From an uncultured Planctomycetota bacterium (GTDB lineage: Bacteria; Planctomycetota; Phycisphaerae; UBA1845; UTPLA1), in assembly GCA_900696465.1 (NCBI GenBank), contig CAADGE010000046.1:265858-329857 (forward strand): a stretch of DNA of 64,000 nt. Direction: 5' to 3'. Each line of letters begins with the position of its first letter. Position 1 is the stretch's first letter. This document shows positions 5,300-13,671 of this stretch, piece after piece. A program made the position numbers and the translations under genes. The notes beneath the pieces were generated by a model. That model had not been told where the DNA came from, ran no database searches, and worked only from the letters and a program-made list of their open reading frames with translations.

Positions 5300-5322
5300 C
5301 ACGCTTCCGGCATCCCGGCGCA

Positions 5323-5460
5323 TAAAAAAAGCCCCCATCGAGGGGGCTTAGCGGGCAGACTCTTTCGAGTTTACCCTGGGCGCTCACAGGGAGCGTTGCC
5401 TTACGCGGACGTTTGTCCACTTACTATGAATTGCGGGACAAGCGTCGCTCAGATACACTA
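5323..5460 (-). ncRNA. tracrRNA of the type II-C CRISPR system
   Basis: Read leftward from about 5459, the RNA opens with an anti-repeat: its first 20 nt (complement of AAGCGTCGCTCAGATACACT at 5440-5459) pair perfectly with the 3' part of the crRNA repeat. After a short bulge, CCCGCAA and CATAGT pair with the 5' part of the repeat, partly through G-U pairs. A stem GGAC-AAAC-GTCC follows, then GCAACGCTC and a CCCTG...CAGGG stem, and finally a terminator hairpin with a U-run. The order anti-repeat, nexus-like stem, GCAACGCUC and terminator resembles the Neisseria-type II-C tracrRNA. It is divergent from cas9 and has its own promoter. Exact ends are inferred from promoter and terminator positions. 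Confidence 0.88.
5324..5349 (-). terminator. Rho-independent terminator of the tracrRNA
   Basis: AAGCCCCC (5329-5336) and GGGGGCTT (5342-5349) form an 8-bp stem with a 5-nt loop. On the minus strand the stem is followed directly by a run of T (complement of 5324-5330), the classic layout for leftward termination. It could also help stop phoH read-through, but on the plus strand no T-run follows. Confidence 0.85.
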
Positions 5461-5465
5461 ATGTC

Positions 5466-8500: not shown

Positions 8501-8640
8501 ACGACGCACGGATGGCGTCCGAAGCGAGAAAAAAAGGAAGCGACGCCAGAATCCGACTAACTGCTGATTCCATGCGACAGCGTCATGCTAGAAAAGTACG
8601 TGTAACCTATCTCGGCGAGATCGTCCCCGCCAATGACTGA
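5506..8640 (+). CDS. cas9: CRISPR-associated endonuclease Cas9, type II-C
   Basis: Cas9 is the RNA-guided double-strand DNA nuclease that uses the crRNA:tracrRNA duplex. At 1044 residues it is in the compact II-C size class. RuvC-I is GLDIGVASIGW (Asp15). The Arg-rich bridge helix spans about 58-92. RuvC-II is IRIELARD (Glu510). The HNH domain contains FDIEHIIPFS with His593 and the paired Asn616. RuvC-III is HHAVDALAVAL (His736, Asp739). All expected catalytic residues are present, so it should be an active nuclease. The C-terminal third should hold the WED and PAM-interacting domains, which cannot be assigned by eye. ATG 5506 precedes MNTFKHVQPF. The stop overlaps the cas1 start by 8 bases. 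Codon use and GC content resemble neighbouring genes. Confidence 0.97.
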   Translation: MNTFKHVQPFVLGLDIGVASIGWTLIGLDDSGNPVRLLRTGAHTFDPSVEGDIESGRDEARGAARRMARMPRRMFERRQRRRKKLLRLLQRSALLPPGKIGSPQEIHEYLLALDTQLRNRFNPKNERVTSHVLPYRLRAAALDGKLDPYELGRAIYHLAQRRGFLSNRKSLKKDEDEGVVQQGITELQAEMNTTGARTLGEYFASLDPELERIRRRWTARSMYVDEFNQIWTAQGTHHPEILTDALRKQVYRAIFFQRPLKSARHLIGRCELVPNARRAALADRLVQRFRMLQKVNDLEIIPHDAPKRRLTDVERAKLLDALNKNGDLTFSRIKSKAVLELPKATTFNFEQRDEEKKLPGHRTDEKMRAVFGDRWDAMEDEERDAVVLEVLSFQNPDALARRAVKAWGLDEKAARLLADTRLEQGYASHSRSALKKLVAKMENGTPYATARRELFPESFKAVEPTDRLPPVYKAMGAIRNPAVERALTELRKLVNEIIRVHGKPECIRIELARDLKRARKERERKSREIAEQTKLRDQAKAKILRDMNIAEPRRSDVEKVLLAEECGWQCPYTGRQISMRALFGEHPQFDIEHIIPFSRSLDNSFLNKTLCHHQENRDHKRNRTPFEAYGRDEKRYDEILARVRRFQGKAADAKLRRFEMQEIPDDFVNRQLNDTRYASRLAGDYLAVLYGGRSDASGTLRIQISTGGITAHLRNEWLLNSILGQGEKNREDHRHHAVDALAVALASPGLVARLQRAAERASDEGRRLFARVPEPWPGFLEQAREKIMAINVSRRQAKKLAGDLHEDTNYSKEYTWTDENGKTKPIRHVKKRIDAMNESQVDDIVDPVVREKVRVWVKAQEGKSKKEIGPPPTIKTRDGREIPIKSVRIRKVIGAVAVGKGPRTRYVKPGANHHSVIVAVLDKDGNEIAWEDYPVTRLEVHQRKAEGRPIIQKDWDPGKVFKFTLTANDFLLLKQRDGEDLLCRLLSLSEGAYEGRVHYDARMASEARKKGSDARIRLTADSMRQRHARKVRVTYLGEIVPAND

Positions 8641-9577
8641 TCGAATCCTCGACTTCGCCGACGGTGCCGCGTACCTCCGCGTGCGCAACGACCAGCTCGT
8701 CGTCGAGCGAAAAGACCAGCCCGATGTGTCGACCCCGATGGCCGAAGTCGCCGCGATCATCCTCGCCCACCCGCAGGCGACGTGCTCCCAGCCGACCATC
8801 GCCCGGCTCATGACCTGCGGCGGGGCACTCGTCGTCTGCGACGATTCGCACCTGCCCGTCGGTGTGATGCTGCCACTCGTCGCCCACACCACGCAGACTG
8901 AGCGGCTCGCCGCCCAGGCCGCCGCGCCGCTCCCCATGCGCAAGCAACTCTGGAAGCAGATCGTCCGCCGGAAAATCCTCGCCCAGGCCGACCTGCTCCG
9001 CCAGCTTCACGACGACGACTTCGGCCTCGCCGAACTCGCCCGTTCCGTCCGATCCGGCGACCCCTCCAACCGCGAAGCCGTCGCCTCGCGCCGCTACTGG
9101 CCCGCCATCTTCGACACCCGAAACACAAGAATGGGTGGTACCTGCGTCCCGCTCGTCGAACCCTTTCGCCGCCGCTTCGACGCCCCCGATGCCAACCGCC
9201 TGCTCAATTACGGCTATGCCGTCCTCCGCGCTGTCGTCGGGCGCGCCATCTGCGCCGCCGGGCTGCACCCCTCGCTGGGCCTGCACCACCACAATCGCTA
9301 CAACGCCTTCTGCCTCGCCGATGATCTCATGGAGCCCTATCGGCCTCTGGTCGATGCCGCCGTCGTGGACCATGTCCGGTGCCACGGACATGACGCCCCG
9401 CTCGACCGGTCCGCGAAACAGGCCATTCTCGAGGCCGTATTGCGACGCTACAGGGCCGACGGCGAAGTCCGCACCCTCTTCGACATCGTCGCACGAACGG
9501 CCGCTTCGCTGGCGCGGGCTTACCTGAAGCAAAGCACCCTGCTGGATTATCCGAAAATGATCGAGGAATGCGTGTAG
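8633..9577 (+). CDS. cas1: CRISPR-associated endonuclease Cas1
   Basis: Cas1 is the integrase subunit that, with Cas2, inserts new spacers. The 314-residue protein matches subtype II Cas1: FADGAAYLRVRNDQLVVER at the N-terminus, SNREAVASRRYWP with the metal-binding Glu148, GLHHHNRYNAF with the catalytic His near 218, and CLADDLMEPYRP with the Asp near 231. All three acidic/His ligands are present. It overlaps the cas9 stop by 8 bases and its own stop lies inside the start region of cas2, so the three genes form one translationally coupled operon. Absence of csn2 and cas4 supports subtype II-C. Confidence 0.96.
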   Translation: MTDRILDFADGAAYLRVRNDQLVVERKDQPDVSTPMAEVAAIILAHPQATCSQPTIARLMTCGGALVVCDDSHLPVGVMLPLVAHTTQTERLAAQAAAPLPMRKQLWKQIVRRKILAQADLLRQLHDDDFGLAELARSVRSGDPSNREAVASRRYWPAIFDTRNTRMGGTCVPLVEPFRRRFDAPDANRLLNYGYAVLRAVVGRAICAAGLHPSLGLHHHNRYNAFCLADDLMEPYRPLVDAAVVDHVRCHGHDAPLDRSAKQAILEAVLRRYRADGEVRTLFDIVARTAASLARAYLKQSTLLDYPKMIEECV

Positions 9578-9960
9578 TCCGGCCGCACCCGGCCGGTTCG
9601 TTCGGGCCGTCCACGATGCCGCGCGACCGATTCGCACTTTCGGGATACCGACCGGTGTGGCTCTTCGCCATGTTCGATTTGCCCGTCAAGACCCAGGCGC
9701 AGCGGAGGCGGTATGCGCAGTTTCGCAAGTTGCTTTTGAAGGACGGATTCTGTCAAATGCAGTATTCGGTCTATGCCCGCTACTGCCCGAGCGAGGAGGC
9801 GGCGCAGGTCCATCGGGACTTGGTTCGCGCCGGCCTGCCGGATGAGGGACAGGTGCGGCTCCTGGCCGTGACGGATCGGCAGTTCGGGAAGATGGAGAAT
9901 TACGTTGGAAAAAGGCGCAGGGAAACCGAGGAAGCCCCGAAGCAACTCATGCTTTTTTGA
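9568..9960 (+). CDS. cas2: CRISPR-associated protein Cas2
   Basis: Cas2 is the dimeric scaffold of the Cas1-Cas2 integration complex. The core is clear: VWLFAMFDLPVKTQAQRRRY, then FRKLLLKDGFCQMQYSVYARYC, with the first-strand Asp typical of the family. From ATG 9568 the protein has 130 residues and an N-terminal extension of about 28 before the first beta strand. An internal ATG at 9616 would give 115 residues, closer to the family norm. Neither start has a good ribosome-binding site, and 9568 overlaps the cas1 stop, which suits coupling. The first CRISPR repeat begins 50 bases after the stop codon. Confidence 0.92.
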   Translation: MRVVRPHPAGSFGPSTMPRDRFALSGYRPVWLFAMFDLPVKTQAQRRRYAQFRKLLLKDGFCQMQYSVYARYCPSEEAAQVHRDLVRAGLPDEGQVRLLAVTDRQFGKMENYVGKRRRETEEAPKQLMLF

Positions 9961-10009
9961 GCGCCGCTCGCTTGCTACTCGCTGTTATGTCGCCGGTTAC
10001 GCGAGGACG
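9961..10009. promoter_or_regulatory. Short cas2-to-array spacer, possible CRISPR leader (acquisition end)
   Basis: Only 49 bases separate the cas2 stop from repeat 1. The repeat at this end is intact, while the repeat at the far end is degenerate, which by the usual rule marks this side as the insertion (leader) end. It is not AT-rich and shows no promoter, consistent with crRNAs being transcribed towards it from promoters inside the repeats. Confidence 0.4.
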
Positions 10010-13000
10010 AGTGTATCTGAGCGACGCTTCCCGGCAAACCACAGCGACTCCGGTGAAGGTGTCGGACGCCCAGCTAGTGTATCTGAGCGACGCTTCCCGG
10101 CAAACCACAGCCGCTTCTGTGCGGTGCTCAGCTTGGTCAGTAGTGTATCTGAGCGACGCTTCCCGGCAAACCACAGCGAGGCCTCGCTGGCGCCGCACCT
10201 GGATGATAGTGTATCTGAGCGACGCTTCCCGGCAAACCACAGCTTGTGCGGCCAATGGCCGCGCGCACATCGAAGTGTATCTGAGCGACGCTTCCCGGCA
10301 AACCACAGCTTGCTGGGCCCTTGACCGCTCGCGCGTCGTAGTGTATCTGAGCGACGCTTCCCGGCAAACCACAGCTTCGGCGGCGTGGCGCCGCAGATTG
10401 AGAGCAGTGTATCTGAGCGACGCTTCCCGGCAAACCACAGCGCGCGATCTCGCGCTTCGCATCATGGGTGCAGTGTATCTGAGCGACGCTTCCCGGCAAA
10501 CCACAGCGACCCGCACATCGACGGCACCAGCAGGATGAGTGTATCTGAGCGACGCTTCCCGGCAAACCACAGCAAGAACCACGTACGCCAGCTTGGTAAT
10601 CAGAGTGTATCTGAGCGACGCTTCCCGGCAAACCACAGCCATGATTCGCCTGGGCAGCGCGGGTGCCCTAGTGTATCTGAGCGACGCTTCCCGGCAAACC
10701 ACAGCTGCCCCTGCAGTTCGCCCATCCGCTTGAAAAGTGTATCTGAGCGACGCTTCCCGGCAAACCACAGCCCGTAGTTACACTAGTCGCAACCGGAGCC
10801 AAGTGTATCTGAGCGACGCTTCCCGGCAAACCACAGCTGATCCAGTGGGGGCCCTACGCGGTCTGGGAGTGTATCTGAGCGACGCTTCCCGGCAAACCAC
10901 AGCCGGCGCGCACGCTGTGGAATGCGATCAACGAGTGTATCTGAGCGACGCTTCCCGGCAAACCACAGCTGCAAGTACAACCCGTGCTGTTTTTCAAGTA
11001 GTGTATCTGAGCGACGCTTCCCGGCAAACCACAGCCCGCGCGTCGGGCTGCGCGAATGGTTTCGGAGTGTATCTGAGCGACGCTTCCCGGCAAACCACAG
11101 CGTCCCGACGGCGAGCTGCGCGAGATTCGGCAGTGTATCTGAGCGACGCTTCCCGGCAAACCACAGCTCGCCGTCGAGGCGGGCAAAGGTCTCGGGGAGT
11201 GTATCTGAGCGACGCTTCCCGGCAAACCACAGCAAACATTTTTATTTCATCTATCCCTATCAAAGTGTATCTGAGCGACGCTTCCCGGCAAACCACAGCT
11301 CAGCGTGAGTGAGGTCACCATCGAGGATAGTGTATCTGAGCGACGCTTCCCGGCAAACCACAGCGCAACGTCGACACCATCCTCGCGCAGTCGGAGTGTA
11401 TCTGAGCGACGCTTCCCGGCAAACCACAGCCGGTCGATGCGGACGATGCGGACGATCCTTAGTGTATCTGAGCGACGCTTCCCGGCAAACCACAGCAACC
11501 GATAACACTTCATCGGCGGCGCGCGAGTGTATCTGAGCGACGCTTCCCGGCAAACCACAGCCCGAATGACGAGCGCGCCGCATTGGAGGGAAGTGTATCT
11601 GAGCGACGCTTCCCGGCAAACCACAGCCTCGCCCGCGCACGACTCCTCGATGCCATGAGTGTATCTGAGCGACGCTTCCCGGCAAACCACAGCGGCGGAT
11701 GACGCCGGGGGCGGCGCGCGGGCAGTGTATCTGAGCGACGCTTCCCGGCAAACCACAGCGTATCCGTCGCCGAGCGCGGAGAAATCGACAGTGTATCTGA
11801 GCGACGCTTCCCGGCAAACCACAGCGGCGCGCGCCGCCATCAAACGACTGCTCTCAGTGTATCTGAGCGACGCTTCCCGGCAAACCACAGCAGATAGGCG
11901 GCGCGTCGGTCGCGCTGGCGGAGTGTATCTGAGCGACGCTTCCCGGCAAACCACAGCTTGTGCGGCCATTGGCCGCGCGCACATTGAAGTGTATCTGAGC
12001 GACGCTTCCCGGCAAACCACAGCAAACCTAAAAGTTACCGAACGCCCCCCCAAGTGTATCTGAGCGACGCTTCCCGGCAAACCACAGCACCGCCGCGAAG
12101 AGCTTGTCGGTCATGTCGAGTGTATCTGAGCGACGCTTCCCGGCAAACCACAGCCTTGGCGACCGTAGCTTCTGCAAGCTTTCCAGTGTATCTGAGCGAC
12201 GCTTCCCGGCAAACCACAGCATCGTCGTATTGCGGCGGTTTTTCGTATGGAGTGTATCTGAGCGACGCTTCCCGGCAAACCACAGCAACGAATACTGGGC
12301 CCAGCTTCGATGCGTTAGTGTATCTGAGCGACGCTTCCCGGCAAACCACAGCTGATCTTGCGGCCGGAACAGACGAGCGGATAGTGTATCTGAGCGACGC
12401 TTCCCGGCAAACCACAGCAGAAAAACACCCACAACCGCCGCGGAACAAAGTGTATCTGAGCGACGCTTCCCGGCAAACCACAGCTGGGCGTGACACCGTC
12501 CTCCGCGCACCTCGAGTGTATCTGAGCGACGCTTCCCGGCAAACCACAGCTCGAGCTTCGAGGGCGCGGCAAACGGATCGAGTGTATCTGAGCGACGCTT
12601 CCCGGCAAACCACAGCCCGAATGACGAGCGTGCCGCATTGGAAGGAAGTGTATCTGAGCGACGCTTCCCGGCAAACCACAGCTGGATGCCCTCATTAAAG
12701 AGGGTGTCGAGTAGTGTATCTGAGCGACGCTTCCCGGCAAACCACAGCGTATTGGCTGAAGGTAAAAGAACTGCAGCCAGTGTATCTGAGCGACGCTTCC
12801 CGGCAAACCACAGCCTGGCCGAGATCAAGCCCTATGAGAAAAATAGTGTATCTGAGCGACGCTTCCCGGCAAACCACAGCTTGTGCGGCTGTTGGACGCT
12901 CGCGCATTGAGTGTATCTGAGCGACGCTTCCCGGCAAACCACAGCCTGGCCGAGATCAAGCCCTATGAGAAAAATAGTGTATCTGAGCGACGCTTCCCGG

Positions 13001-13671
13001 CAAACCACAGCAGAATCCACCGCATCGGCCAGCGAAGAAAAAGTGTATCTGAGCGACGCTTCCCGGCAAACCACAGCTACGGCCGCTCGCGCGTCGTGGT
13101 GCACGATAGTGTATCTGAGCGACGCTTCCCGGCAAACCACAGCCGTTGGATGTTCTGAATGGGAACATCCGTTAGTGTATCTGAGCGACGCTTCCCGGCA
13201 AACCACAGCGCTTTCCGCTGTCGGGGTTCAGCGCTCTGAAGTGTATCTGAGCGACGCTTCCCGGCAAACCACAGCCTGGAGCCATGAGCGGATCGCCGAA
13301 CCTGCAGTGTATCTGAGCGACGCTTCCCGGCAAACCACAGCGAGCCGACAACGCAGTGTTTTTCGTGTGAAAGTGTATCTGAGCGACGCTTCCCGGCAAA
13401 CCACAGCAAATGGATGGCGCGTTCATCCGTGCAAACAAGTGTATCTGAGCGACGCTTCCCGGCAAACCACAGCACGTGCAGCCGCCGACGTGGATCAACA
13501 GGTAGTGTATCTGAGCGACGCTTCCCGGCAAACCACAGCCTGCGAGAGTTATGGTCGCTCGCGCGTCGTAGTGTATCTGAGCGACGCTTCCCGGCAAACC
13601 ACAGCGACGTACGCGCTGGAAGCGCACGACGACGGAGTGTATCTGAGCGACGCTTCCCGGAAAAATCAGAA
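10010..13671 (-). CRISPR. Type II-C CRISPR array, 56 repeats and 55 spacers
   Basis: The 36-bp repeat reads, on the plus strand, AGTGTATCTGAGCGACGCTT followed by CCCGGCAAACCACAGC. Fifty-five copies are identical as far as I could read; copy 56 (from 13636) keeps its first 25 bases and then diverges. Spacers are 30 bp, except spacers 20, 23, 31 and 44, which are 29 bp. The tracrRNA anti-repeat fixes the crRNA strand as minus. Read leftward, each repeat holds TTGCCG and TACACT 16 bp apart, so each may be its own promoter. Spacers 43 (12815-12844) and 45 (12946-12975) are identical. Spacers 4, 5, 30, 44, 47 and 54 are related, as are 24 and 40. Because the unit is 66 bp, all frames stay open across the array; those reading frames are not genes. 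Confidence 0.99.

Follow-up and report, generated by a model that had tools for sequence, protein, structure and literature searches.

Why does one CRISPR array hold several spacers that appear to sample the same short stretch of foreign DNA? The array lies in the window, the 64,000-nucleotide stretch of DNA from an uncultured Planctomycetota bacterium analysed here. A sequence-only reading had singled out spacers 4, 5, 30, 44, 47 and 54, assigned each a peptide in one common frame, and proposed that they target variants of a conserved coding motif in diverging mobile elements. Positions and peptides were both reproduced for all six (Table 1), and we examined the locus that carries them, their relationship in DNA, the frame that they share and the sources from which they may derive.

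A type II-C-like CRISPR-Cas locus

Beginning 49 bases after cas2, the array comprises spacers of 29-30 nt and a 36-nt repeat whose full copies are identical in 55 of 55 cases; the last repeat, at 13636-13671, is degenerate. The Cas9 protein matches TIGR01865 (E = 9.6e-206), and the solved chains that match it best, 8ja0 and 6kc8, are both Cas9. Adjoining cas9 are cas1, which overlaps both of its neighbours, and cas2, each with a match to type II models. On the question of csn2 or cas4, four neighbouring ORFs were scanned in addition to the cas genes. Overall, the locus has the look of an ordinary type II-C system.

A tracrRNA is predicted beside cas9 on the minus strand. Its anti-repeat (5459-5424) is followed by hairpins and then by a terminator, read by eye at about 5348-5324, and promoter-like boxes, also picked out by eye, lie nearby (TTGACA, 5495-5490; TAGAAT, 5471-5466). 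An anti-repeat-like match of 35 bases is also present in four related genomes (L019, L020, L022 and L023). Because the predicted tracrRNA lies on the minus strand, the guides would be read as the reverse complement of each spacer given here, which would make the left end of the spacers the PAM side. At the other flank, a comparison by eye of six array pieces found the bases immediately preceding the first repeat to be alike in four (the window, L020, L022 and L023), alike only in part in L019 and unlike the window in L021; this similarity is consistent with a leader next to cas2.

We take the system to be akin to type II-C of the Neisseria and Campylobacter kind, with which it shares cas9-cas1-cas2 plus array, a tracrRNA beside cas9, guides opposite in strand to the cas genes and a leader-like array end at cas2. 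Among the features compared (cas genes, array, predicted tracrRNA, guide strand and leader-like end), there was no difference. According to an excerpt of PMC12638026, type II-C arrays carry promoters inside their repeats and acquire spacers at the 3′ end; from the acquisition polarity reported in that excerpt, the cas2 end of the array would be the young end, and we infer that, of the six, spacer 54 was acquired first and spacer 4 last.

Table 1 Positions of the cas genes, predicted RNA and flank, array and resampled spacers in the window
Feature	Positions	Strand	Remark
Predicted tracrRNA	5324-5459	-	Anti-repeat, hairpins, terminator; fold z-score -3.23 for 5300-5462
cas9, 1044 aa	5506-8640	+	Type II model match
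cas1, type II	8633-9577	+	Type II model match
cas2, type II	9568-9960	+	Type II model match
Leader-like flank, cas2 side of array	9961-10009		Compared by eye
CRISPR array, 55 spacers	10010-13671	-	Minus-strand guides inferred
Spacer 4, family of six	10244-10273	-	Profile score 31.5
Spacer 5, family of six	10310-10339	-	Profile score 23.7
Spacer 24, second resampled site with spacer 40	11562-11591	-	
Spacer 30, family of six	11958-11987	-	Profile score 30.7
Spacer 40	12617-12646	-	Two changes relative to spacer 24, synonymous in frame 1
Spacer 43	12815-12844	-	Resembles phage parB-methyltransferase genes
Spacer 44 (29 nt), family of six	12881-12909	-	Profile score 28.3
Spacer 45	12946-12975	-	Identical to spacer 43
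Spacer 47, family of six	13078-13107	-	Profile score 19.6; 10-nt shift
Spacer 54, family of six	13540-13569	-	Profile score 19.7

Six spacers related in DNA

Each of the six spacers was scored against a profile built from the remaining five. All scored between 19.6 and 31.5 in the expected register, whereas the best non-member among the 49 other spacers, taken on both strands, reached at most 13.8 and the shuffles, 2000 per member, peaked at 11.5-14.1. Spacer 5, the most divergent of the six, kept its high score (23.7) although it was left out of the profile. An ungapped comparison of all spacer pairs, with the best score of 30 shuffled sets as reference, placed five pairs above that reference: the identical spacers 43 and 45, then 24/40, 4/30 (28 of 30 bases identical), 30/44 (24 of 29) and 47/54 (18 of 20 overlapping bases). 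Judged by their sequences, the six spacers are real and related in DNA. No further member was recognizable by DNA among 86 spacers from five array pieces in four related genomes, where the best pair listed with any of the six scores 5.0.

The left end is exactly common to spacers 4, 5, 30, 44 and 54, while spacer 47 is shifted by 10 nt; the base missing from spacer 44 is at the opposite end. Members with the same start differ from one another by 2-14 bases. Over the ten same-start pairs, which are not independent of one another, the 12 PAM-side columns differ in 50 of 120 cells versus 39 of 176 elsewhere, an excess that fits escape in the seed half and also fits a protein with a more conserved second half.

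A favoured coding frame

The proposal of a single coding frame was borne out in part. The proposed frame is the best of the six, with a mean BLOSUM62 score of 3.03 against 1.94-2.31 in the others; it contains no stops, whereas two other frames of the alignment do, and 19 of its 74 codon differences are synonymous. However, 487 of 3000 column permutations reach the same mean score, so the coding frame is favoured but not proven. The six spacers likely derive from protein-coding sequence.

Although the ten-residue translations are as the sequence-only reading gave them, part of the tenth codon belongs to the repeat: spacers 4, 5, 30 and 54 end in GA or GT, with the repeat supplying the A of the tenth codon, and spacer 44 ends in G, with the repeat supplying AG. 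The final E in spacers 4, 30 and 44 therefore does not come from the target alone. The proposed consensus, C-x-x-x-[GD]-R-[SA]-[RH]-[IV]-[EV], holds except that its C is missing from spacer 47, which begins downstream of that residue. A diversity-generating retroelement was considered as the source of a variable codon of the form NNT/NNC present in all six and was set aside on the many C/T differences among them; to our knowledge, such retroelements do not make C/T changes.

Other resampled sites in the array

The six-spacer motif is not the only site to have been resampled. Spacers 24 and 40 are identical at 28 of 30 bases and both changes are synonymous in the frame PNDERAALEG, which suggests that alleles get resampled in this array. 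The identical spacers 43 and 45 form the third site; together the three hold 10 of the 55 spacers. Among 1485 spacer pairs we counted 12 with the same start, against about 0.02 expected by our own estimate, which assumes that spacers are drawn at random from both strands of one 40-kb phage.

A pattern for the peptide of spacers 43 and 45, LAEIKPYEKN, matched 11 viral contigs (L043-L053; L044 and L048 look identical). All 11 matches lie in frame in similar ParB-like ORFs with 24-27 of 30 bases identical, an identity in which codon choice alone is free, since the pattern fixes the amino acids. ParB_N and N6_N4_Mtase domains were found in each of the three proteins scanned. The other spacers match these contigs with at least 8 mismatches, no better than reversed controls, so the array sampled other invaders than these. 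Left of the ParB sites and left of spacer 47 (bases taken there from spacer 54), a comparison by eye for the shared PAM that the sequence-only reading had suggested checking gave no clear common motif.

Probable repeated acquisition from diverging versions of one site

We consider it probable that a type II-C-like system acquired spacers six times, on separate occasions, from one PAM-anchored site of roughly 40 nt in diverging versions of an invader. The site would probably be a coding sequence of the host's phages. A PAM beside the left end would fix where a spacer starts, which would explain why five spacers begin at the same base and spacer 47 at a second site 10 nt on. A version carrying sufficient mismatches against an older guide could get through and be sampled anew. 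Repeated sampling of one site from differing sources, as the sequence-only reading proposed, is well supported by the DNA family of six members, the PAM-side end that five of them share and the 55 unchanged repeats; orthologous sites in diverging elements, the further claim of that reading, look the same in these data as paralogous copies in one element.

Such copies are the strongest competing source. The six spacers could come from paralogous occurrences of the motif within a single element, in a repeat protein or a multicopy gene; a repeated motif would raise the chance of being sampled, and spacers 4 and 5, neighbours in the array, differ at as many as 10 of 30 positions. Against this, two bases separate spacer 4 from 30 and spacer 47 from 54, as between alleles, and spacers 24 and 40 point to resampling of alleles in the same array. 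We regard paralogous copies as unlikely. Duplication of spacers inside the array followed by mutation is far less likely again, even though identical duplicates do exist, as with spacers 43 and 45 here and the neighbouring spacers 8 and 9 of the L020 array: all 55 repeats are unchanged while same-start members of the family differ, the neighbours of related spacers are not co-duplicated, and spacer 47, through its shift, brings 10 nt of new sequence. With no mutation in 55 repeats, the differences among the spacers come from their sources and hardly from the array. Least probable is that G+C-rich coding sequence produced the similarity by chance. That view could point to spacers 14 and 16, not added to the family, whose scores of about 12-14 in most profile tests come near the shuffle maximum (scores near 13 that may themselves be chance), but not to the six, which clearly outscore both controls and do so in the expected register.

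Returning to six acquisitions from diverging versions of one site, we can offer a further step only tentatively. The array may be a fossil record of an arms race, in which guides at the same position were taken up after each change in the seed half of the phage site, and spacers 54, 47, 44, 30, 5 and 4 would then form a time series of escape; we hold this to be possible, though rather less likely than not.

Searches for the targeted gene

The sequence-only reading had also held that the targeted protein must be common in the viruses or plasmids of this host, a claim that is not carried, because no close protospacer turned up in the collections searched. Seven motif-pattern scans of viral_contigs gave no close protospacer for the six, three of them with zero matches, and the whole array had zero matches in the phage collection. 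A pattern of the spacer 4 type had no hit in genome_contigs. When 3 mismatches were allowed, the array was its sole hit in 61 genomes, those of relatives together with the array's own; at the same tolerance, the array was likewise the sole hit of a spacer 47-type pattern in 294 genomes of the phylum, a set that again contains its own. A looser pattern, unfit for spacers 47 and 54, had four places in the array's own genome, all inside the array. Since each pattern fits only some members, a diverged protospacer could be missed.

The nearest place, the single hit of its pattern and on the IMG/VR contig L005, lies in frame in an ATPase-domain gene (HATPase_c_2, PF13581, E = 5e-16) and reads DAVPGRARVEVHD. 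Spacer 47 agrees with it at 23 of 30 bases, the other five members at 15-18. The place has no C at its start, and it sits on a contig that the other 54 spacers match no better than with 8 mismatches. As the search pattern forces most of this match, we treat it as a weak lead and not as the target. Two further pattern scans gave one place and two places (L024, L025 and L026) and a single scan gave six (L027-L032); at all of these the matching frames, inspected by eye, were judged probably non-genic because their open stretches are short or rich in arginine, those of L024 and L025 running to about 100 codons.

Candidate genes were weighed as well. A composite of spacers 51, 54 and 47 pointed to a T7-like primase/helicase through six records, from Synechococcus phages S-CBP1 and S-CBP4, at E values of 6-7. 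The zinc site of this primase/helicase was rejected as the target because the stretch past its fourth cysteine is not conserved, GR[SA] following that cysteine in none of 10 phage sequences. Spacer 51 (13342-13371) reads EPTTQCFSCE, with a C-x-x-C knuckle; its seeming join to spacer 54 is unsupported. The methyltransferase part of the ParB genes was likewise rejected as the target of the six, as C-x-x-x-G-R-[SA]-[RH] does not occur in the protein. The closest segment reads CWREGAAH in L044, L045, L048 and L053 and GWREGAAH in L046, L047, L049 and L050; in L043, L051 and L052 the ORF stops short of this segment. The pattern C-x3-G-x-S-R is presumably similar to the helix-turn-helix found in small subunits of phage terminases. 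Pfam and PHROG searches with padded peptides of 10-16 residues gave zero matches, the peptides being too short to decide on a helix-turn-helix, and the six peptides, run as a profile against solved structures, had no match.

In the plasmid collection, the whole array met two Streptomyces mobaraensis records through one 35-base match (88.6%, E = 0.3). The match is to spacer 26 (11694-11723) with adjoining bases, and the gene there is annotated as a DnaB-like helicase.

Relation to reported cases

For pink-berry phages, the available part of PMC10370329 describes a conserved gene at which several spacers are directed and whose protospacers vary among related phages. We likewise see several spacers against a single site; unlike there, where protospacers were found, none was found here, and here six variants stand in one array. 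The portion of PMC6401485 available to us reports that certain viral genes, terminase and methyltransferase among them, are preferentially targeted. The resemblance of spacers 43 and 45 to ParB-methyltransferase genes is in keeping with the preference described in that portion. Repeated sampling in this array is a clear but ordinary example of a phenomenon known in kind. Once the phage is found, the six protospacer versions in one array would allow phage escape and re-vaccination of the host to be traced at one position.

Observations on single spacers

Compared on opposite strands, spacer 14 (10904-10933) and spacer 4 of the L020 array share 15 bases of a 17-base overlap, which may be chance. 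In the L020 array, spacers 8 and 9 are identical over 29 nt. Spacer 16 (11036-11065), with a borderline score, reads PRVGLREWFR and may share the frame of the motif and overlap it in its downstream part. Spacer 46 (13012-13041) reads RIHRIGQRRK in frame 1, a peptide that we take to be like motif VI of SNF2-type helicases.
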